Shown here: piece after piece, positions 2,293 to 24,815 of the stretch
Layout of the letters: every line of letters starts with the position of its first letter
Numbering within the stretch: position 1 is the first letter of the stretch
IMG/VR virus record: IMGVR_UViG_3300005936_000016
Coordinates: 1-24,815 of that record
From: a virus
Strand: one strand, 5' to 3'
Length of the DNA stretch: 24,815 nucleotides
Program-made: the position numbers and the translations under genes
The notes under the pieces: generated by a model
The model's input: only the letters and a program-made list of their open reading frames with translations
The model's database searches: none
What the model was told of the DNA's origin: nothing

Positions 2293-2597
2293 CGGTGGTA
2301 AATCTGGATGGGGATGGGGCGGCGGGTTACGCCGGAGCAGAGGGTTTTTGGGGCAGGTGGAGGCGGCTTGCCTTTCCAGCCGCGCGGGCTCCACCCGCCG
2401 TGGGGATGGCGGCCCGGGAAGTCTGGCTGCGGGCGGTCATCCGCCTGGCGGCGGATGCTACTGGCTTGAGGCGCGGGGTCATCCGCCTCACGGCGGATGC
2501 TACGAAATCCCAGGAAAATCCCGAGGAGGCCGCCTATTATGATAGGTGCCATAATGTAGGCGGCGAGGATGAGGGTGTTTTGTAGGTCTGTGGTCAT
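2289..2597 (-). CDS. Small membrane protein with a REP-derived C-terminal tail (102 aa)
   Basis: Residues about 8-31 form one strongly hydrophobic helix (LILAAYIMAPIIIGGLLGIF), so this is a single-span inner-membrane protein. From residue 33 onward the sequence is low-complexity, arginine/proline-rich, and encoded almost wholly by palindromic repeats. SIRREADD (33-40) and SIRRQADD (47-54) are translations of two GTAG-type REP elements. The following part covers a further hairpin (2357-2394). The ORF overlaps muB by ATGA (2594-2597) and the next gene by ATGA (2289-2292), so its frame is preserved through the repeats. The core function is unknown; the tail is probably acquired. Confidence 0.6.
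   Translation of the reverse strand: MTTDLQNTLILAAYIMAPIIIGGLLGIFLGFRSIRREADDPAPQASSIRRQADDRPQPDFPGRHPHGGWSPRGWKGKPPPPAPKTLCSGVTRRPIPIQIYHR
2357..2394. repeat. Imperfect palindrome inside the membrane-protein ORF
   Basis: The arms GTGGAG+GCGGCT and AGCCGC+CTCCAC surround a 9-nt loop, with a 5-nt bulge in the right arm, and would form a long hairpin. It lies next to two GTAG-type REPs and is translated as part of the proline/tryptophan-rich tail of the 102-aa ORF. Confidence 0.6.
2436..2461 (-). repeat. GTAG-type REP palindrome, copy 1
   Basis: On the minus strand this reads GTAGCATCCGCC, a 4-nt loop, then GGCGGATGAC. Compared with copies at 6690, 10349 and 19024 the stem carries compensating changes (CCGCC/GGCGG instead of CGGTC/GACCG), which indicates that the hairpin is conserved. 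GTAG followed by a hairpin is the signature of REP sequences mobilised by REP-associated tyrosine transposases (RAYT). No RAYT gene is in this window. Confidence 0.8.
2478..2503 (-). repeat. GTAG-type REP palindrome, copy 2
   Basis: This has the same architecture as the copy at 2436-2461, with a different loop (GTGA rather than GCCA in minus-strand orientation). It is offset by exactly 42 bp, so both copies are read in the same frame and encode nearly the same octapeptide of the 102-aa membrane protein. Confidence 0.8.
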
Positions 2598-3637
2598 GAC
2601 TGGAGGGTTTCGAGTTTGCGGAGGGAGTCGTGGGAGCGGATGACTTGATCCCAGTCCATAGGCAGGTCTTTCCGGTGGCAGCGGCCTGCGGTCATCCGCA
2701 GGAGCATGAGCCAGACGCCGAGGGCCTGGTCGCGGATGACGTGGGTCTGCACCTCGAGGGCCTCGCCTTCGGCGGGCGGGAGCGCGTAGGCGGCGGCGAA
2801 TGTTTCCAGGTCCGCTTTGGTGGGATGGTTGGGCAGCTGGAGGGCGCAGAGTCGGCGGCGGCTGAGCTGAGAGAGGACCCCCGATTGGCGACCGGTGTCG
2901 ATCTCATCGCGGAAGACATTTGTCGCGCTGATAACGAGGCCGCATTTGGTGCGGTCGTGTAGCTCGCGCAGAAACTCATAGATGACGGTGTTGTAGTCTC
3001 TGCCGTTTCGCTTCGAGGTCCGCATGGCCTGGTGTGCCTCGTCGATGATGAGGAGCATGCGGGAGTCGAAGGCCCGGATGATTCGGCGCTTGAGGTCGGA
3101 GGTGGTGAGGCGGGAGGAGATGCGGAGTTTGTCGGCCATCTCCCGCAGGAAGTCGGCTACGAGCCCGCCGGCTGGCATGGTGATCATAATGGTCTCACCG
3201 TGGTTATGGGTTTGCTGATACTGTTCGAGCGCGGTGGTTTTGCCGATCTGCGAGTCGCCAAAAATGAATGCGATGCGCTGGTAGACCAGGGCGTTTTCGC
3301 AGACCTGCCAAATCTGTTTGGAGAGGCGGGTCTCTATATAGGAGAGCGCGTCGGTCCCGGCGCGGGCGGCTACGGTTTGGCGTAGCTTGTCGATCTCGGC
3401 TGCGATGGAGGCTTTGCCCGCCTGGTGGCGACCGGTCCACACCTGGTAGAGAGTGTTGGCTTCGCGGCGGATCGCTTTGGCGGCCTCGTCGATTGTCCAT
3501 CCCTGGTCGAGCGCGTGAGAGTGCAGCCAGCGGATGGCTGAGCGCTGTTTGTCCGGCAGGTCGGAGGTGGCCTGATTCACGGTGTCGCCGGGGACGCTTA
3601 GGCTGGGTTGGTTGGGCTGTTGTTTTGCGGGTGTCAT
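2594..3637 (-). CDS. MuB-like AAA+ ATPase, transposition target-capture protein
   Basis: This 347-aa ATPase has a Walker A motif GDSQIGKTT (residues 127-135), a Walker B motif LLIIDE (195-200) followed by AHQA, and a sensor-type VISATN (235-240). An N-terminal HTH-like segment (residues about 36-70, DEAAKAIRREANTLYQVWTG) resembles the Mu B/IstB-class N-domain. MuB forms ATP-dependent filaments on target DNA, captures targets and stimulates MuA. The start lies 12 bp after the muA stop and lacks a Shine-Dalgarno sequence, with an A-rich leader instead. The stop overlaps the following gene by ATGA. The assignment is robust from motifs and synteny. Confidence 0.9.
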   Translation of the reverse strand: MTPAKQQPNQPSLSVPGDTVNQATSDLPDKQRSAIRWLHSHALDQGWTIDEAAKAIRREANTLYQVWTGRHQAGKASIAAEIDKLRQTVAARAGTDALSYIETRLSKQIWQVCENALVYQRIAFIFGDSQIGKTTALEQYQQTHNHGETIMITMPAGGLVADFLREMADKLRISSRLTTSDLKRRIIRAFDSRMLLIIDEAHQAMRTSKRNGRDYNTVIYEFLRELHDRTKCGLVISATNVFRDEIDTGRQSGVLSQLSRRRLCALQLPNHPTKADLETFAAAYALPPAEGEALEVQTHVIRDQALGVWLMLLRMTAGRCHRKDLPMDWDQVIRSHDSLRKLETLQS

Positions 3638-3648
3638 TTTTTTATCGA

Positions 3649-5868
3649 TTAGAAGAGGTCGATCTCGTCGTCCTCTTGATTTGGTTGGTTGCCACCTGTT
3701 TGGGCTGGCACGAAAAATTCATCTGGGTCGACGTCGCGGGCGCGGCGGTCCATGCGGCGTTCACGCTGTTTCTCACGGGCTTGCTCTTCGCGGGCTTTGG
3801 AAAATTCGCCAGCCACTCCTCCGCGTTCTTCTTCTGCGATGCGTAGGGCTTCTTCGTTATTCGCCAGGCGATTCGAGAAGCGGGACTCCTGATCGCCGAG
3901 GAAGCTGCGGACATGGTTGAGGCGGTCCTCTTGCCAGCGGTGCACTTCGCCGGCGCGTTTGCCGATCGCATCTGCGTCGGTGATGTCCGTGTTGCCTTTG
4001 CGCGGGAGGGTGGCGAGGTAGGATCCGGTTTTGCGATCTGCGATGACGCAATGCGTGTGATCGTCGGCGATGTAGGCGAGGACGGCGGCCTTTGCCCGGT
4101 CGTATTTACCGAGGCCCTCGACATCCGCGGGGCCGAAGAGCATCGTTTGCTCCTCGAGAGTGTGATCAGCGATGGAAATATTACCCTCGCGAAGAGTTGC
4201 GGGGCGCTTGTCCGCATAGAGGGCGTAAAGGGTATCCGGAGAGAGCTGAGACCACTGCTCTGCATAGGGTTTTCCGAGGCGCTGAAAGCGCTCTGCAGGG
4301 GCCTCCATGCGGGGATGCAGCTGGATGCCTGCACGATCCTCGGCGGGGATACTGACGAGAGCGGACTCCGGCCGCCAACGGCCTGCGGAGTCGCGCCACT
4401 CGAAGACGCGATCGAAGCCCTGGAGGCGGTGATCGGTGCGCCAGTTCAGCGCGTCGACGATTTCACCGACGACCTGGTTGACCTCATCGACAGTGAGGGT
4501 TGGGAAATTGAGTTGCTCGAACAGCGGCTGGTCTGGAGAGAGAGGGCCGTCGATCACTTTCTCGGCGCGCTTGATAAGGTCGGTGGTATATTTGATGCGT
4601 GCTGGCTGATCGCCGCGGGAGAGGTCGAAGCGGCGGCCCGTTGTTCCTTCGAGGTGATTGAGGTGAGTATGGAGCAGGCGGAAATAGGATTCGATCCAGC
4701 CTTTCATTCCGGGCCTCCCCCATTCTTCGGAGAATCCGCTCTTGAGGAGCTGCCCCCGGCCCATGCCGGTGTAGTCGGTTTTGAGACGGTCGCCGAGGAG
4801 TCGGAGGAAGGCTTCCTCGTCGGCACCGGTCAGCTTCCCCGTGGCCATTTCCATCAGCCATGTCATTTGGTATGGCGGTAAGCCCTTGGTTTGTAGAACC
4901 TCGAGAAATAGATGTCGCACGTCCGCACCATTGATGCTCATGCGGGTGCCTTCGGCGCGGCCCTTCTCGGTATCTTTGCCTCGAAGCGCTCGCCCCTTGA
5001 GACCATAGGCGAGGATGGTGCCGGTGCCCACGTCGAGCGCGAAGATCGCGTCGATATAGACGACCTGCCAACGGCCATCGACATACATCCGCGCCTGGAG
5101 GTCGAGCCGCACGTCGTCGATGGTGAGGAGCTGCATGGGGAGGAGCTTGGATCGATCGCGGAGGAGTTTTTCGCCCCACGAAGTCCGGAGGCGGTTTGTC
5201 TGCCCCTGGGCGGCTTGGCGTTGCGCTTTGGTTGGCAGAGCCTTTTTCACGTGGCGCCAGAGGTTGGGCCGACTCCAGCTGGGCGGGCGATCCGCCTTGC
5301 GGAGTATACGACCGCTCGGCACGGGAAGGCCGTGGGCCGGATACCACTCGCTCTTGCGACCGTAACCGGGGATTTCCTGATCGGCCATCCAATCGCGCAA
5401 CAATCTCGCGTGGCAGCCAGCCCAGGCATCGCCATTGCGGGTCGTCTCCGAGTAGAGGGTTACGAGGTGGGCGACAAACTCGCGGGAAAGGTCTTCGCCG
5501 CCGTTTGTGTATTGGCGGACCAAGACCCGCCAATCGCGGGGAGCGAAGCGATGTCCGCTCTTGCGCCCGTCGGAGCCAGGCTTTTGCCCACCCTTGCGCC
5601 AGAGATCGTATTTGGCGCGGATACGCCCGGGTGACATTCCACGAAGTTCGGGATACATTCCGCGGACTTCGCGGGAAACCCGGCTGGCCGTGTGCCCGAC
5701 CTTGCCGGGGCCTGCCTCGTCGAGACGGCGAAAGATGTCGAGATGCAGCAATACATAGCTACGCTCATCGCTGGGTAGACGGAGGAAAACCGCCCAATCG
5801 GGTGCCGCGATCTGGTCGCGCAAGGCGATATCTCCCATGCCGTCGATGACTGAGAGGGAGCCGCTCAT
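3649..5868 (-). CDS. MuA-like transposase
   Basis: The 739-aa protein is slightly longer than Mu A. N-terminal DNA-binding modules (about 30-240, basic) precede an RNase H-fold core. The first catalytic aspartate lies in LTIDDVRLDLQ (D251/D252) with the following strand FALDVGTGTILAYG. The last acidic residue is in GRPGMKGWIESYF (E393), matching the KxxxE motif of MuA. The middle acid seems to be E340 in TWLMEMATGKL rather than aspartate. The C-terminal region (about 640-739) is highly charged and helical, as in MuA domain III, which contacts MuB and ClpX. A perfect AAGGAGG lies 6 nt before the ATG, inside the end of the ParB-like gene, with which it also overlaps by ATGA. It catalyses strand transfer for integration and replication. 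Confidence 0.9.
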   Translation of the reverse strand: MSGSLSVIDGMGDIALRDQIAAPDWAVFLRLPSDERSYVLLHLDIFRRLDEAGPGKVGHTASRVSREVRGMYPELRGMSPGRIRAKYDLWRKGGQKPGSDGRKSGHRFAPRDWRVLVRQYTNGGEDLSREFVAHLVTLYSETTRNGDAWAGCHARLLRDWMADQEIPGYGRKSEWYPAHGLPVPSGRILRKADRPPSWSRPNLWRHVKKALPTKAQRQAAQGQTNRLRTSWGEKLLRDRSKLLPMQLLTIDDVRLDLQARMYVDGRWQVVYIDAIFALDVGTGTILAYGLKGRALRGKDTEKGRAEGTRMSINGADVRHLFLEVLQTKGLPPYQMTWLMEMATGKLTGADEEAFLRLLGDRLKTDYTGMGRGQLLKSGFSEEWGRPGMKGWIESYFRLLHTHLNHLEGTTGRRFDLSRGDQPARIKYTTDLIKRAEKVIDGPLSPDQPLFEQLNFPTLTVDEVNQVVGEIVDALNWRTDHRLQGFDRVFEWRDSAGRWRPESALVSIPAEDRAGIQLHPRMEAPAERFQRLGKPYAEQWSQLSPDTLYALYADKRPATLREGNISIADHTLEEQTMLFGPADVEGLGKYDRAKAAVLAYIADDHTHCVIADRKTGSYLATLPRKGNTDITDADAIGKRAGEVHRWQEDRLNHVRSFLGDQESRFSNRLANNEEALRIAEEERGGVAGEFSKAREEQAREKQRERRMDRRARDVDPDEFFVPAQTGGNQPNQEDDEIDLF

Positions 5869-6746
5869 ACCGAGCCTCCTTTGCGTATGTCGGCCTGGCC
5901 GCTCCGGATGGCCTTGGCGAGGCTGCGCATCTCTCGGGCTTCGTTGGCGAGCGCCTCGGCGGTAGACTCCAGCTCCTCGGCGGCCCGATCGGGTTCGGCG
6001 ATCATCTTCTCGCCGAAGAATTGATTAGTGCGGCAACGCTCGATCGAGCCGATATATTCGCTGAGGTCTGAGCGGAAAACATTCCAGAAATCGACTTGTC
6101 CACCGGGGGGCGTCTCGGGGAGTTTTCGGGATTTCCCGTCTCTGCCGACTCGGGAACTGGGGAAATTCCCCAGTTCCTCTCGTCGCGCCCCAACGGTCTT
6201 GTGATCAACCTTGCAAATATCCGAGATGGCCCGGTCGCTTTGGTCGGGCCATTTGGCGAGGGCGGCGGTTACGGCCTTGCGCTTGTCTGCGTTGGTGCGG
6301 CGGAGGCCGTGGGCGGCATTGGCCCCGCAAGCGTGGCGGAATGCGGCTTCGACCCCACCGGGGCGGACGATGGCGCGGACGGTCTTCCGACCGCGCATAC
6401 CCTGCTGGGCGAAGACGCGGTGCCAGCCATCGCCTATATAATAGGTGCCGGAGACGTCGGCGGCGAATAGCACGATGGGAGGCACGGCCGCCCCGGCCTC
6501 GTAGGCCTCGCGGAGATTGTCGATCTGATCGCCATCGCCGGCGCCTTCGCGGAGCTGGGTGGATCGGTCGTGGAGGACGATCTCGTCGAGGGGAATTTCC
6601 GATGGAGATGGCGAAGGGCTAATAGCGGATGGCGAATGGGGGTCGCTCTTGGTGTTGGGGCCTCTGGCGAACATGCCCTGGGCTGGCTGGTCATCGGTCT
6701 TGGCGACCGATGCTACGGGCGGTGTTTTTTTTGTTTTGGTGGGCAT
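5865..6746 (-). CDS. ParB/Srx-fold DNA-binding protein upstream of muA
   Basis: Residues about 50-120 form a ParB N-terminal-like domain. IPLDEIVLHDRS leads in, and YYIGDGWHRVFAQQ (GDGWHR at 105-110) corresponds to the ParB box I-x-D-G-x-x-R. A helix-turn-helix follows (SDRAISDICKVDHKTVGARREE, about 170-192), then a helical tail. ParB-like proteins bind and spread on DNA and use CTP in the classic family; here the gene replaces the Ner position of Mu. Residues 11-20 (VASVAKTDDQ) are encoded by a REP palindrome, and residues 38-50 are a Ser/Pro linker. It is preceded by an eight-unit octamer array instead of a Shine-Dalgarno, and overlaps muA by ATGA. Confidence 0.75.
   Translation of the reverse strand: MPTKTKKTPPVASVAKTDDQPAQGMFARGPNTKSDPHSPSAISPSPSPSEIPLDEIVLHDRSTQLREGAGDGDQIDNLREAYEAGAAVPPIVLFAADVSGTYYIGDGWHRVFAQQGMRGRKTVRAIVRPGGVEAAFRHACGANAAHGLRRTNADKRKAVTAALAKWPDQSDRAISDICKVDHKTVGARREELGNFPSSRVGRDGKSRKLPETPPGGQVDFWNVFRSDLSEYIGSIERCRTNQFFGEKMIAEPDRAAEELESTAEALANEAREMRSLAKAIRSGQADIRKGGSV
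6690..6717 (-). repeat. GTAG-type REP palindrome, copy 3, in the ParB-like ORF
   Basis: On the minus strand this reads GTAGCATCGGTC, loop, GACCGATGAC. It lies inside the first 20 codons of the ParB-like gene and is translated as VASVAKTDDQ. The stem sequence matches the copies at 10349 and 19024. Confidence 0.8.
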
Positions 6747-6834: not shown

Positions 6835-7167
6835 TCATACCCGCACCCCTTTTGATTTTAAGTGTTTCGTCAGTTCCTGGTGCCAGCGGATTAGGCTTTG
6901 GGTGGGCATGTGGCGGATGGGGCTTACTGCAAACTCACAGGTCATGGAGCGGAGGACGAAGTCGCGGAAGGACTCGACCGGGATCCGCGCCGCCATGCGG
7001 GATTGGCCTTTGCCGATGTTCACGGCCGCGAGCTCATCGGCTGCGATCAGGTCGCTCACATGCTGCCTTGTGCAGTGGAGCCGCTCCGCTACCTCGCGCA
7101 CCGTCAGCACGCTCTTGCCGTGCATATCGAGCAAGGCGAAGGGGAGTTCCTGTTGGACGGTTGGCAT
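6835..7167 (-). CDS. Excisionase/MerR-type helix-turn-helix regulator (110 aa)
   Basis: The frame is open to 7419, but ATG 7167 is chosen. It is preceded by the octamer-type leader seen before other starts, and upstream translation would run through that leader and another gene. Residues 20-45 (VLTVREVAERLHCTRQHVSDLI) are a classic DNA-binding HTH_17/excisionase-type helix-turn-helix, followed by a basic wing-like segment (NIGKGQSRMAARIPVESF). The C-terminal half is basic. It lies immediately upstream of the ParB-like and muA genes in the early operon, so control of transposition or of early transcription is plausible. The target is unknown. Confidence 0.75.
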   Translation of the reverse strand: MPTVQQELPFALLDMHGKSVLTVREVAERLHCTRQHVSDLIAADELAAVNIGKGQSRMAARIPVESFRDFVLRSMTCEFAVSPIRHMPTQSLIRWHQELTKHLKSKGVRV

Positions 7168-7213
7168 TGAAGATTGTTGGAGATGTTGAGAGGTTAAGAA
7201 GTTGAGAGGTTGC
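7168..7213 (-). repeat. Octamer-type leader array before the HTH gene
   Basis: On the coding strand the leader contains AACCTCTC, AACTTCTT and AACCTCTC followed by less regular AACATCTCC and AACAATCTTC, directly abutting ATG 7167. No Shine-Dalgarno is visible. The array overlaps the 3' end of the BRO-N fragment. Confidence 0.6.
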
Positions 7214-7397
7214 GGTAGCTCAAGCCGGGATGGATGTAGTAGCCTTTGAGGCGGATCTCTCGGATCACTTCGCAAACCCAGCGACGGAAACGCTTGGCGG
7301 CCTCGGTGCGAGAGCGGAAAATTAGCTCGTAGAGTCCAATTTCGGTAACGCAGGCTATCTCGCGAATCTGTCCACCTGATGTATCTTTTAGATACAC
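7194..7397 (-). CDS. Truncated BRO-N (phage antirepressor) domain protein
   Basis: The 67-aa ORF contains the C-terminal half of a BRO-N domain: VTEIGLYELIFRSRTEAAKRF followed by RRWVCEVIREIRLKGYY, the highly characteristic GLY-x-L-I-x-RS...A-x-x-FRRWV signature. The N-terminal half of the domain (the usual WF-x-x-x-DV region) is absent, and no second antirepressor domain follows. The start is a GTG inside the 3' end of the DUF551 gene (10-bp overlap). The 3' end consists of octamer-leader repeat. It could be a remnant of a larger antirepressor or a functional mini-protein; a remnant seems likelier. Confidence 0.55.
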   Translation of the reverse strand: MYLKDTSGGQIREIACVTEIGLYELIFRSRTEAAKRFRRWVCEVIREIRLKGYYIHPGLSYRNLSTS

Positions 7398-7669
7398 AGG
7401 TCTCGCGGATCGAGTTCAACTTGGCGGTTCGGTGGAGAAGGGAAGTCGGCCCAGTGGGTCACGAATGTCCCCTCACCCTGTTCGACCGGATCGGCGGAGA
7501 CGTAGCGCCACTCGCCATCTTCGCGGAATCCCGTCCAAACCTCTCCATCATTGAGGGCTATAAGGACGGTCATTTCTTCATCTGGGAGATCCGTGGTTGC
7601 GTTGATCCAAGACACCGAACAAGGCGCTGGAGAGGAACCGCCATTAGCGGTGTTGTTTCGGAGTGACAT
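7388..7669 (-). CDS. DUF551-domain protein (93 aa)
   Basis: The C-terminal two thirds fit DUF551: WINATTDLPDEEMTVLIALN, then a W-x-GFREDGEWRYVS segment, then VTHWADFPSPP, matching the family's W-x-x-x-x-x-x-LP...VTHW-x-x-x-P-x-PP ends. DUF551 proteins are small, common in phages, and of unknown function. The ATG at 7669 is 5 bp after the preceding (interrupted) ORF. A short palindrome (GTATCT-TTT-AGATAC, 7381-7395) covers its stop codon and the start of the BRO-N fragment. Confidence 0.75.
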   Translation of the reverse strand: MSLRNNTANGGSSPAPCSVSWINATTDLPDEEMTVLIALNDGEVWTGFREDGEWRYVSADPVEQGEGTFVTHWADFPSPPNRQVELDPRDLCI

Positions 7670-7872: not shown

Positions 7873-8058
7873 TTATTTGGCGGTGGTTAGGCGAACGCCT
7901 CGGAGTTCCCATTCAGGAATCTTCGCGGCTAGAGAAAACCGGACAATGTCGGAGCTTTTCACTCCATGAATCCGGGCAAGTTGTTCCACCCGTCTCCGGG
8001 TCTCCGCGTCTACCCGCAGATTTAGTGGAGTGTTAAGAGTGCGGCATCGTTGCTTCAT
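7873..8058 (-). CDS. Ribbon-helix-helix regulator, first gene of the leftward early operon
   Basis: This 61-aa protein is essentially one RHH (CopG/Arc-like) domain. The beta strand TPLNLRVDAETRRRVEQLAR leads to the turn HGVKSSDIVRFSLAAKI. RHH proteins dimerise and insert the beta ribbon into the major groove, binding repeated short operators. Over 30 aligned residues it shares 15 identities with the divergent RHH protein at 8158-8355, so the two look paralogous. The promoter is TTGACA-18-TACAAC with the start only about 4 nt after the predicted transcript start. As the leading gene of the lytic-type operon it may act like Cro or Ner. Confidence 0.8.
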   Translation of the reverse strand: MKQRCRTLNTPLNLRVDAETRRRVEQLARIHGVKSSDIVRFSLAAKIPEWELRGVRLTTAK

Positions 8059-8060
8059 GA

Positions 8061-8089
8061 TGCGTTACGTTGTAGCGCAATGTAACGCA
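8061..8089. promoter_or_regulatory. Operator cluster: three TGCGYTAC half-sites
   Basis: TGCGTTAC at 8061-8068 and its inverted copy GTAACGCA at 8082-8089 flank an 8-bp GTAGCGCA (8072-8079, TGCGCTAC on the minus strand). The three half-sites cover the -10 box and start of the leftward promoter. Another TGCGCTAC lies over the rightward -10 (8139-8146). Such short repeated sites next to an RHH gene are the expected operator form for RHH dimers. Which protein binds is not visible. Confidence 0.65.
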
Positions 8090-8098
8090 GACTGTCAA
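8069..8098 (-). promoter_or_regulatory. Leftward early promoter
   Basis: The minus strand has a perfect -35 TTGACA (8098-8093), an 18-bp spacer and -10 TACAAC (8074-8069). The predicted start near 8062 leaves a leader of about 4 nt before ATG 8058. The -10 lies inside the 12-bp element GTTGTAGCGCAA, which recurs inverted at the opposing promoter. Confidence 0.6.
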
Positions 8099-8119
8099 CT
8101 CCTCTTTTCTCGAAAAAAG

Positions 8120-8149
8120 TTGATTTGTCTAAAATTTTTGCGCTACAAC
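8120..8149 (+). promoter_or_regulatory. Rightward promoter of the second RHH gene
   Basis: The -35-like TTGATT (8120-8125), an 18-bp spacer and -10 TACAAC (8144-8149) mirror the leftward promoter exactly in geometry. The -10 lies in TTGCGCTACAAC (8138-8149), the inverted perfect copy of the element at 8069-8080. The predicted start is at about 8156-8157, so the mRNA would be leaderless or nearly so for ATG 8158. Confidence 0.5.
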
Positions 8150-8157
8150 TGATCCCA

Positions 8158-8355
8158 ATGGGGCTCGCAAATGGAATCACGGTGCGCTTGGACGAGGAAA
8201 CTCGTGCCCGGCTGGAGAGGCTTGCCGATCAGTCTGGGATCAAGAGTAGCGCATTGATTCGCCACGCATTGCAGGATTATCTCGATAGAGTTGAGAAGAC
8301 CGGACGCCTAGAAATATTAGTAGGCTCGGCCCCGAAACCCCGAAAGACGGCGTGA
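8158..8355 (+). CDS. Ribbon-helix-helix regulator, candidate lysogeny repressor
   Basis: The 65-aa protein is an RHH domain (NGITVRLDEETRARLERLAD, then SGIKSSALIRHALQDYL) plus a short basic tail. ATG 8158 is preferred to the TTG at 8125, because that codon lies in the promoter and the domain begins just after the ATG. It is divergent from and similar to the RHH gene at 7873-8058, with overlapping operators between them. It is the only regulator on the right-hand transcript, which also encodes a membrane protein and then terminates. That is the layout expected for a repressor expressed in the lysogen; this role is inferred. Confidence 0.75.
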   Translation: MGLANGITVRLDEETRARLERLADQSGIKSSALIRHALQDYLDRVEKTGRLEILVGSAPKPRKTA

Positions 8356-12357: not shown

Positions 12358-12894
12358 ATGGCCCGCAAACCCAGAAGCGACGCGAAGCTCCGCAACCTCC
12401 CGCCCGATCAGCGCACGGCGTTGACGGATTGGTTGGTCGACGAGGGGATCTCCTACGAGGCCGCGAAGAAGCGCCTCAAGTCGGAGTTTGGCGTGTCGAC
12501 CTCCTACGGAGCGGTTGCCGACTTCTGGCAGAAGGAGTGCTTCTCCCTGCGCTTCCGCAAGGCCCGCGGGGTAGCTGAGGAGATCGTCGGCGTGATGCGC
12601 GAGAGCGAGAACGACTTCGACGAGGCCACGCTGACGGCCATCGGCCAACGGGCCTTTAACCTCGCTGTCGCCAAGGATGCGGATGTGGGCGAACTAGTGA
12701 ATCTGGTCAAGGTCATCGGGGAGTCCAAGAAACTTCAATTGCAGTCGGATAAACTCAGCCTCGAAAAGCGCCGGGTGCGTATGCTGGAAAAGAAAGCCGC
12801 GAAACTGGACCAGCTCACAAATGATCTCGATACCGACGACGGGCTGACCCCTGAAGAGCGCCTTCAGAAGATCAGGGAGGGCTTGCTGATATGA
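12358..12894 (+). CDS. Small terminase subunit-like protein (Mu gp27/DUF3486-like)
   Basis: This 178-aa protein begins with LRNLPPDQRTALTDWLVDEG and an HTH-like segment ISYEAAKKRLKSEFGVSTSY. That resembles the Mu gp27/DUF3486 start, with L-P-x-x-x-R followed by a DNA-binding helix-turn-helix. The middle is helical, and the C-terminus is a charged coiled coil (LQLQSDKLSLEKRRVRMLEK). In Mu, gp27 acts with the gp28 ATPase in packaging initiation. Its stop overlaps the large terminase start by ATGA, consistent with stoichiometric coupling. Confidence 0.75.
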   Translation: MARKPRSDAKLRNLPPDQRTALTDWLVDEGISYEAAKKRLKSEFGVSTSYGAVADFWQKECFSLRFRKARGVAEEIVGVMRESENDFDEATLTAIGQRAFNLAVAKDADVGELVNLVKVIGESKKLQLQSDKLSLEKRRVRMLEKKAAKLDQLTNDLDTDDGLTPEERLQKIREGLLI

Positions 12895-14345
12895 GTAAGA
12901 CCGCGACAGCCGGAGCCTTTGGGCGCGCCAAGTGCATTCCGCACCATCCGGAGCGGATGCTCTTGCACTACCAGGAAGCATGGCGCGGCGACCGTTCCCG
13001 CCTCAAGGTGGGTGAGAAGAGCCGCCAGATCGGCTGGACCTGGTCGGACGCGCTCGACTCGATGGAGCAGACCTTCCTCGGCCCGAACGATTGCTGGGTC
13101 TCCAGCCGCGACGAGTTACAGGCCAAGCTCTACCTCGATGACTGCCGCTTCTGGGCATCCTACTACCAGCGCGGCTCGCAGGCGCTCGGCCTCCAGGACA
13201 TCACCGACGACAAGGGCGGGAAGCATTCCGCCTACGTGCAGCGGTTCGACAACGGCCACACAATCAATTCCCTATCCTCCAACCCGGATGCCCAGGCGGG
13301 CAAGCGTGGCACCCGCAAGCTCGACGAGTTTGCCCTGCACAAAGACCCGAAACTTCTCTACGAGATTGCCTACCCCGGTATCACTTGGGGCGGGCAGATG
13401 GCGATCTTCTCGACCCACCGGGGTCGTCAAAATTTCTTCAACAAACTCATTGAAGAGGTTCGCGACGGGGGTAACCCCAAGGGCATCTCCCTGCACAGCG
13501 TCACCCTGGAGGATGCTCTCGACCAGGGTCTTCTCTACAAGCTGCAACAGCGCCTCCCCGCTGGCGACGAGCGACTGGAGATGGACGAGCAAGACTACTT
13601 CGAATTTATCCGCGCCGGTAGTGCCTCGGAGGATTCCTTCCAACAGGAGTACATGTGCGTGCCGTCGGACGATGCCAGCGCCTTCCTCCCCTACGAGCTG
13701 ATCGATGGTTGCACCTACCCGATCAGCGAGGCATGGGAGCGATCCCTGGCCGACTTGCAGGACTCGCAGAGCGAGCTCTACCTCGGTGTCGACATCGGGC
13801 GGAAGAAAGACCTCACGGTATTCTACCTCGTCGAGCGCACGGGCGGGATGGCCTTCACGCGGCGCATTGAGGTTTTGCAAAACATGCCCTTCTCGCGCCA
13901 GGAGGAAATCCTTTACCGGATCTTGAGTCTTCCGCGCATGCGGCGTTGTTGCATCGATTCGACTGGCCTCGGAATGCAGTTCGCCGAGCGGGCGCAGGAA
14001 CGCTTTGGCACCTATCGGGTGGAGGCAGTGCGGTTTAGTGGTCCCGTGAAGGAAGAGCTGGCCTATCCGGTGCGCAAGGCCTTCGAGGACCGCTCGATCC
14101 GCATCCCCCGCGATGCGGATCTGGAGGCCGACCTGCGCAAGATCCGCAAGGAAACCACTTCCGCGGGAAATATCCGCTTCACGGCCGAGTCGGACGATAG
14201 TGGCCACAGTGACCGTTTCTGGGCGCTTGCACTGGCTTTGCATGCCGGGAAAAGCAGCGCCCCCTTTGCCGCCGCCAGCCCGGCTGTTTCCCGCTCAACC
14301 CACATTGACCCCCTTTCCGGTCGCAACACGGCCATCCTCCTCTGA
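12891..14345 (+). CDS. Large terminase subunit (Mu gp28-like)
   Basis: The 484-aa protein has both expected activities. The ATPase part carries an adenine/Walker A-like EKSRQIGWTW (residues 42-51) and a Walker B-like KLDEF (143-147). The C-terminal RNase H-like nuclease has YLGVDIGRKKDLTVFYLV, CIDSTGLGMQF and HSDRFWALALA, giving three spaced acidic residues. Large terminases pump DNA into the prohead and cut it; Mu-like enzymes package by headful into host DNA. Its neighbours, the small subunit before and portal after, confirm the packaging module. Length is normal and no defect is seen. Confidence 0.92.
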   Translation: MSKTATAGAFGRAKCIPHHPERMLLHYQEAWRGDRSRLKVGEKSRQIGWTWSDALDSMEQTFLGPNDCWVSSRDELQAKLYLDDCRFWASYYQRGSQALGLQDITDDKGGKHSAYVQRFDNGHTINSLSSNPDAQAGKRGTRKLDEFALHKDPKLLYEIAYPGITWGGQMAIFSTHRGRQNFFNKLIEEVRDGGNPKGISLHSVTLEDALDQGLLYKLQQRLPAGDERLEMDEQDYFEFIRAGSASEDSFQQEYMCVPSDDASAFLPYELIDGCTYPISEAWERSLADLQDSQSELYLGVDIGRKKDLTVFYLVERTGGMAFTRRIEVLQNMPFSRQEEILYRILSLPRMRRCCIDSTGLGMQFAERAQERFGTYRVEAVRFSGPVKEELAYPVRKAFEDRSIRIPRDADLEADLRKIRKETTSAGNIRFTAESDDSGHSDRFWALALALHAGKSSAPFAAASPAVSRSTHIDPLSGRNTAILL

Positions 14346-24338: not shown

Positions 24339-24815
24339 ATGAAAAATCCAATACATCTCTCCCTCTTCCGTAGGGGGTTGGCTTTAGCCGCCCCCCTCTG
24401 CCTCTCGGCCCTGCTCCCTGCCTGCGCCACCGCCGCTGAGCACGACATCCGCGTGCCCTCTGAAAACGCCTCGGGCGGCACCGAGATCCGCACCATCAAC
24501 ATCACTCCGGAAGCCGAGACCATCCTCGACGACGCAACCATCGCGGCCATGCGGGCCACCCTCGGCCTGGTGATCGGCACGGATGTCCTAGCACCAACAG
24601 GCGATGGGTCCGGGCTGACGGGTGTTTTAATTACGGATGATGTCATCACTGGGGACGGGGGAGTGCAGTTGGGAGGCAATGCCTCCGCAACCTTTGGCGG
24701 AGCCGTAGGGGTTTACGCATCCGCAACCTCTGGGGGTGCGGTCGGAGATAGTGCGGAAACCACCAGCGGAGGTGCGGTCGGCACTGGTGCGGAAACCACC
24801 TCTGGCGGTGCTGTC
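24339..24815 (+). CDS. Secreted repeat-rich fibre/adhesin-like protein, 5' part (runs off the window)
   Basis: The first 159 codons are present. The N-terminus has basic residues and a hydrophobic core (GLALAAPLCLSALLPACATA) ending in a lipobox-like LPAC or a signal peptidase I-type site, which is unusual for a virion protein. Residues about 80-100 contain GDGSGLTGV, a motif often seen in phage fibres. From base 24696 exact 12-residue units begin: GGAVGVYASATS, GGAVGDSAETTS, GGAVGTGAETTS, then GGAV. This resembles the head repeats of trimeric autotransporters (YadA/Hep_Hag). It may be a tail fibre or a lysogen surface adhesin. Confidence 0.65.
   Translation, partial: MKNPIHLSLFRRGLALAAPLCLSALLPACATAAEHDIRVPSENASGGTEIRTINITPEAETILDDATIAAMRATLGLVIGTDVLAPTGDGSGLTGVLITDDVITGDGGVQLGGNASATFGGAVGVYASATSGGAVGDSAETTSGGAVGTGAETTSGGAV
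24696..24815 (+). repeat. 36-bp coding tandem repeat in the fibre-like gene
   Basis: Complete units lie at 24696-24731, 24732-24767 and 24768-24803, with a partial unit to the edge. Each encodes GGAVG-x-x-A-x-(A/T)-TS. The second and third copies are more alike than the first, suggesting recent local duplication. Confidence 0.85.

Follow-up and report, generated by a model that had tools for sequence, protein, structure and literature searches.

Homologous ribbon-helix-helix genes at the probable switch between lysogeny and lytic growth in a B3-like transposable phage

The textbook lysogeny switches, those of lambda, P22 immC, and Mu, are made of helix-turn-helix (HTH) regulators, and in Mu the c repressor gene is transcribed away from the first early gene, a small one. 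P22 carries a known ribbon-helix-helix (RHH) pair in a side module, immI, in which mnt is read leftward and arc rightward from a 90-bp gap and ant follows arc; the order in Edno5 is the same. The roles of P22 Arc and Mnt have been described (PMC7549136). In Pseudomonas phage B3, the HTH gene ORF17 heads a leftward operon containing A and B, and the P22 c2-like repressor gene ORF18 is read rightward from the other side of an 85-bp gap. In the beetrevirus Fc02, strand-specific RNA-seq and a thermosensitive repressor identified the forward-strand gene as the repressor, transcribed in the lysogen, while the reverse-strand operon, with ner first, turns on at induction; the gap between them is 106 bp (PMC9936078). 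Searches of an open-access literature library turned up no description of an RHH/RHH switch for any Mu-like phage.

Gene order around the divergent pair

The stretch analyzed here (the window) covers the 24,815 nucleotides of IMG/VR record IMGVR_UViG_3300005936_000016, an incomplete virus fragment. A 99-bp gap at 8059 to 8157 separates RHH-L (7873 to 8058, minus strand; 61 amino acids), the first gene of a leftward early (transposition) operon, from RHH-R (ATG at 8158, to 8355, plus strand; 65 amino acids), which agrees in coordinates and sequence with the first-pass annotation. This unstranded, divergent intergenic region lies at the place of the 85-bp gap between B3 ORF17 and ORF18. Leftward from the gap, all on the minus strand, RHH-L is followed by a DUF551 gene identified by profile match (7388 to 7669), a Bro-N remnant, an HTH_17/excisionase-like gene (HTH17; 6835 to 7167, with the reading frame open from 7419 and the L092 homologue matching only from about residue 101), a ParB-like gene (5865 to 6746; phrog_1033, E value of 3e-12), A, a divergent Mu-type transposase (3649 to 5868; 55% identity to the L092 protein), B, a MuB-like ATPase (2594 to 3637; phrog_296, E value of 1e-25), and a Gam-like end protection gene (1496 to 2029; phrog_491, E value of 2e-11). 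The Bro-N remnant, which sits behind the DUF551 gene, is the C-terminal half of an antirepressor-type domain (7194 to 7397; Pfam Bro-N, E value of 7e-9, profile positions 59 to 94 of 96). Rightward from the gap, RHH-R is followed by a phrog_13160 gene and then by the late genes for a Mu gp27-like small terminase and a B3-type large terminase (12358 to 14345, plus strand; profile matches).

The A protein is very divergent: its PHROG match (phrog_310) has an E value of only 0.003, and single-sequence searches (tblastn, 1e-5) of viral_contigs and the phage collection recovered no relatives. A MuB pattern search of genome_contigs gave no match. Where the record is cut off (24600 to 24815), a coding stretch repeated in GGTGCGGTCGG-like units is probably part of a tail-fibre gene. 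The host is probably a member of the Verrucomicrobiota, because related terminases have hosts mostly in Verrucomicrobiota and Lentisphaerota.

As in B3 and Mu, a divergent regulator pair heads the A-B operon, but both regulators are RHH proteins and not members of the known HTH families. RHH-R matches Pfam RHH_1 directly (E value of 7e-8). RHH-L alone is below threshold in Pfam, and its membership in the superfamily follows from its L169 orthologue, which reaches RHH_1 at an E value of 8e-4, and from its homology to RHH-R. The kinship of the two proteins noted earlier held up, with 15 of 32 domain residues identical by eye and the RHH-L reading frame found at an E value of 2e-6 with RHH-R as the query. 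Orthologues of RHH-L occur in L092 (60 to 69% identity) and L169, as do those of RHH-R (57% in L092), and a single-sequence search of phages with RHH-R recovered no relative. Structure models of moderate confidence (pLDDT 64 to 65; 64 for the AlphaFold model of RHH-L) have CopG, PutA-RHH, and Arc-type chains as best matches, with no Foldseek E value below 0.1; the closest chains to RHH-L, of CopG, antitoxin, and Arc type, are likewise not significant.

RHH-R also matches RelB/CopG antitoxin models, below the cutoff, which would fit two autoregulated antitoxin-type genes that form no phage switch. We consider this very improbable: the two genes share operators at both promoters, nine counterparts exist in Mu-like phages, and neither RHH-L nor RHH-R has a toxin gene next to it in the window. 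For lack of an adjacent toxin gene, a type II toxin-antitoxin system was rejected.

The position shared with B3 and Fc02 points to RHH-R as the putative lysogenic repressor and to RHH-L as the putative Ner/Cro equivalent. Two further phages, L091 and L096, have B proteins 72 to 73% identical to that of the window, as close as that of L092, yet carry other regulators at the switch position; in L096 this is an HTH_3 gene, and the small early gene that faces it is also present in L091. By sequence comparison, the immunity part is swapped between otherwise similar phages, as expected. If the roles of the two RHH proteins were reversed, or if both were early regulators, a third factor such as HTH17 or the ParB-like protein would hold lysogeny, and both of these genes are conserved in L092. 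This arrangement is improbable, because both genes are part of the early operon and so would be silent in a lysogen, leaving RHH-R as the only candidate transcribed away from it, and because L091 and L096 keep a ParB-like gene although their switch genes differ, so that it is not an exchangeable immunity part.

Candidate promoters and operators in the gap

Both regulator genes are preceded by predicted outward promoters of like geometry, as the first-pass annotation had described. The leftward promoter, PE (8069 to 8098, minus strand), has TTGACA (8098 to 8093) and TACAAC (8074 to 8069) with an 18-bp spacer, and the ATG of RHH-L lies 10 nt past the -10 element; the rightward promoter, PR (8120 to 8149, plus strand), has TTGATT (8120 to 8125), the same spacer length, and TACAAC (8144 to 8149), with the ATG of RHH-R 8 nt past it. 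Neither was listed in a consensus promoter scan of the window, because the scan demands a T at the last -10 position. No Shine-Dalgarno sequence precedes RHH-L or RHH-R, and with the -10 elements only 8 to 10 nt from the start codons, both mRNAs should be leaderless or nearly so; that from PR would be leaderless if transcription starts about 7 nt downstream of the -10 element.

The window has exactly two copies of the 12-bp word TTGCGCTACAAC, one at 8138 to 8149 (plus strand) and an inverted one at 8069 to 8080 (minus strand), and each copy carries a TACAAC -10 element, as reported earlier; the next-best match in the window has two mismatches. The half-site TGCGYTAC matches eight times in the window, compared with 0.7 expected, a count reached in none of 100 shuffles. 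Four of the matches fall inside the gap (8061+, 8072-, 8082-, and 8139+; P of about 3e-9, Poisson, with the rate outside the gap). Three half-sites (8061 to 8068, plus; 8072 to 8079, minus; 8082 to 8089, minus), among them the two extra TGCGTTAC half-sites noted earlier at the leftward promoter, make up a near-palindromic, unstranded 29-bp candidate operator, OE (8061 to 8089). Their centres are 11 and 10 bp apart, or one helical turn, a distance familiar from the operators of Arc and other RHH proteins. The second candidate operator, OR (8138 to 8149, plus strand), is the rightward copy of TTGCGCTACAAC and combines a single half-site, TGCGCTAC (8139 to 8146), with the -10 element of PR. A further inverted match, between 8139 to 8157 and 8235 to 8253 (16 of 19 positions identical, TGCGCTACnnnTGATCCCA), was considered as a second operator inside RHH-R and rejected, because neither the TGATCCCA extension nor the internal copy is conserved in L092.

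The description of the region as a mirror image was only partly right. The same word does lie on both -10 elements, but PE combines three half-sites with a near-consensus -35 element (5 to 6 of 6 positions), whereas PR has one half-site and a weak -35 element (4 of 6). The asymmetry of the -35 elements holds in the window, L092, and L169, with that of PR weak in all three.

Conservation in these two relatives argues that the shared word is functional. The 34-kb IMG/VR record L092 is a true relative with the same gene order, in which B is 73%, A 55%, and the ParB-like protein 43% identical to those of the window. The RHH proteins are 60% (RHH-L) and 57% (RHH-R) identical, and third codon positions are only 38% and 31% identical, respectively (dN of about 0.34; dS above 2 or saturated). 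Over this distance the operator block TGCGTTACGTTGTAGCGCAAyGTAACGCA (OE) is identical at 28 of 29 positions, including an exact inverted copy of TTGCGCTACAAC, and TTTTGCGCTACAA ahead of RHH-R is identical at 13 of 13. The operator-to-ATG distances are unchanged on both sides, and divergence is seen in the central part of the gap. PE of L092 reads TTGACG-18-TACAAC, with the ATG 10 nt after the -10 element, and the corresponding distance at PR is 8 nt. L169, a 3.6-kb contig from a genome of the phylum of Luteolibacter, carries orthologues of both RHH genes, with the -10 elements in TTGTGCTACAAC at the leftward and TTGCGCTACAAG at the rightward promoter; its PE is TTGACA-16-TACAAC, with a leader, and at its PR the ATG comes 6 nt after the -10 element. 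Within 2.9 Mb of related, partly overlapping loci, TTGYGCTACAA has six matches, and all six lie at PE or PR of the window, L092, and L169. Because the operators are conserved while the flanking third codon positions have diverged, the comparative evidence makes these gap elements functional candidate operators. A chance resemblance of the two promoters is next to impossible in view of this conservation and of four half-sites within 99 bp.

Beyond L092, the pattern GCGYTACNNNGTARCGCANNGTARCGC was found in viral_contigs only in L164 and L165, inside a coding gene with no RHH neighbours, and these matches were set aside as unrelated. The GTTAC/GTAAC half-site cluster there (L164, 5230 to 5290; L165, 880 to 940) lies within a gene resembling a replication protein and is possibly an iteron origin.

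Divergent RHH pairs in other transposable phages

An RHH pair in a Mu-like phage had appeared unusual, and the first-pass annotation had suggested a search for further examples. When an RHH-domain profile was run over the loci surrounding B3-type terminase genes and the MuB genes of Verrucomicrobiota, divergent RHH pairs were found in nine other records, near MuB or B3-type TerL, so that the window is not singular; elsewhere, P22 arc/mnt is a precedent. Beyond the window, L092, and L169, the pairs are those of L029, L087/L020, L088/L021, L089/L036, L133/L205, L195, and L219, so that at least seven other such viruses have different-looking versions of the pair. L133/L205 is a prophage region of Luteolibacter marinus NBU1238. 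The pairs score 61 to 121, compared with at most 20 for the best unrelated phage pair. Known arc/mnt pairs score lower (Edno5, 53; P22, 17, within noise), and because the profile misses such remote pairs, the count is a lower bound. Other B3-terminase phages have single RHH genes close to their early region, at L085 876 to 1112 (StopSmel), where the gene adjoins an annotated c repressor/Ner pair, and at L106 3857 to 4126.

By similarity, the pairs fall into four families: the window with L092 and L169; L029, L087, L133, L195, and L219, with longer repressor-side proteins; L088; and L089, whose pair belongs to the Arc family by Pfam. In L029 the repressor-side RHH domain (4878 to 5516, plus strand) is fused to a LexA-type S24 domain (E value of 3e-12) in which the Ala-Gly, Ser, and Lys motifs known from self-cleaving repressors can be picked out by eye, and the protein is predicted to be an SOS-cleavable RHH repressor. 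Since such a domain is expected of a prophage repressor, the fusion counts in favor of the switch reading.

Early and repressor members are more alike within pairs than across pairs (permutation P value of 0.0004), a pattern consistent either with several head-to-head duplications or with selection that maintains a single operator. When every gap was tested for repeats against Markov sequences, the outcome was clear for L092, L195, L219, L087, and L088, and for L133 by direct repeats; it was borderline for the window (4 of 100) and not clear for L029, L089, and L169. The L195 gap holds a perfect palindrome with 11-bp arms and the L133 gap two 10-bp direct repeats, the words differing from that of the window. 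The evidence for shared operators therefore does not extend to every pair. We tentatively suggest, with somewhat less than even confidence, that transposable phages, mainly those of Verrucomicrobiota, arrived at their primary switch on several occasions by head-to-head duplication of one RHH gene, so that repressor and anti-repressor would inherit, and compete for, one operator word, and that a LexA-type self-cleaving domain was later acquired in at least one lineage (L029), where it would couple the RHH repressor to the SOS response.

The proposed switch and its relation to known systems

The locus probably serves a B3-like transposable phage as its primary switch for lysogeny, with two RHH proteins of common descent as the regulators. 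In a lysogen, RHH-R would be made from PR as a leaderless mRNA and would bind cooperatively to the three half-sites of OE, which lie in helical phase, covering the -10 element and start site of PE and so keeping the early operon (RHH-L, HTH17, the ParB-like gene, A, B, and Gam) off. At higher concentration it may fill the single OR half-site on its own -10 element and limit itself. After induction, RHH-L, as the first product of the early operon, would read the same word, shut PR, and later tone down PE. Here the assignment of proteins to sites and their order, the leaderless starts, and the lysogenic role are what we infer from the arrangement.

Some observations count against a primary switch. 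RHH proteins usually bind two half-sites, and OR has one; RHH-R is without an inducer domain; and the distance between OE and OR is not kept, at 57 bp in the window and 53 bp in L092. A search of the window and of the 34-kb L092 record gave no HTH_3 repressor above the cutoff, though the window record is incomplete and a further repressor could lie outside it. Of the original proposal of a lysogeny switch made of two related RHH regulators, the homologous pair, the conserved shared word, and the B3-like repressor/ner position stand, whereas mirror symmetry and singularity do not.

A secondary immunity module like P22 immI, in which the RHH pair would control a Bro-N antirepressor gene and the true repressor would lie elsewhere, is a less probable, indeed unlikely, explanation. 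Its appeal lies in the gene order shared with P22 and Edno5 and in the complete Bro-N gene of L092 (3642 to 4301, plus strand; E value of 2e-21), directly after RHH-L, of which the window retains the second half. Bro-N is absent at L169, however, the records of five other pairs yielded none, and the window copy is truncated. Moreover, the operon also contains A, B, and Gam, so that the whole transposition operon has RHH-L at its head; the pair sits where B3 and Fc02 have their repressor/ner switch; and the HTH_3 search recovered no other repressor in the window or L092.

If a primary RHH/RHH switch does recur in transposable phages, it would be the logic of the switch that is conserved and not the fold. 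It would also offer a minimal system of two proteins and three plus one half-sites in which to see how sister repressors divide one operator. In poorly annotated Verrucomicrobiota prophages, an RHH pair would mark the switch locus.

Among described systems, P22 immI shares with the window two related, divergent RHH proteins over a short operator region of about 90 bp. In L092, as in P22, the arc-like member is followed by an antirepressor-type gene, which is halved in the window and absent at L169. P22 immI differs in that the window pair heads a Mu-like transposition operon at the place of B3's primary switch, and in its operators, since in the window one word lies on both -10 elements. The sequence families differ as well: the pairs described here are CopG-like, except that of L089, and the window proteins match RHH_1, not the Arc family (PF03869) of the P22 module. 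In Mu, the repressor gene is likewise read away from the small gene that comes first in the early region, but c and Ner have other folds and are unrelated to each other, and the orientation of the early operon relative to the late genes is different. The repressor-ner switch of B3 and Fc02 (Beetrevirus) resembles the window in where it lies, how it is oriented, the size of its gap (85 and 106 bp), and the operons downstream; the B3 regulators are HTH proteins, whereas those of the window are both RHH proteins and homologous to each other.
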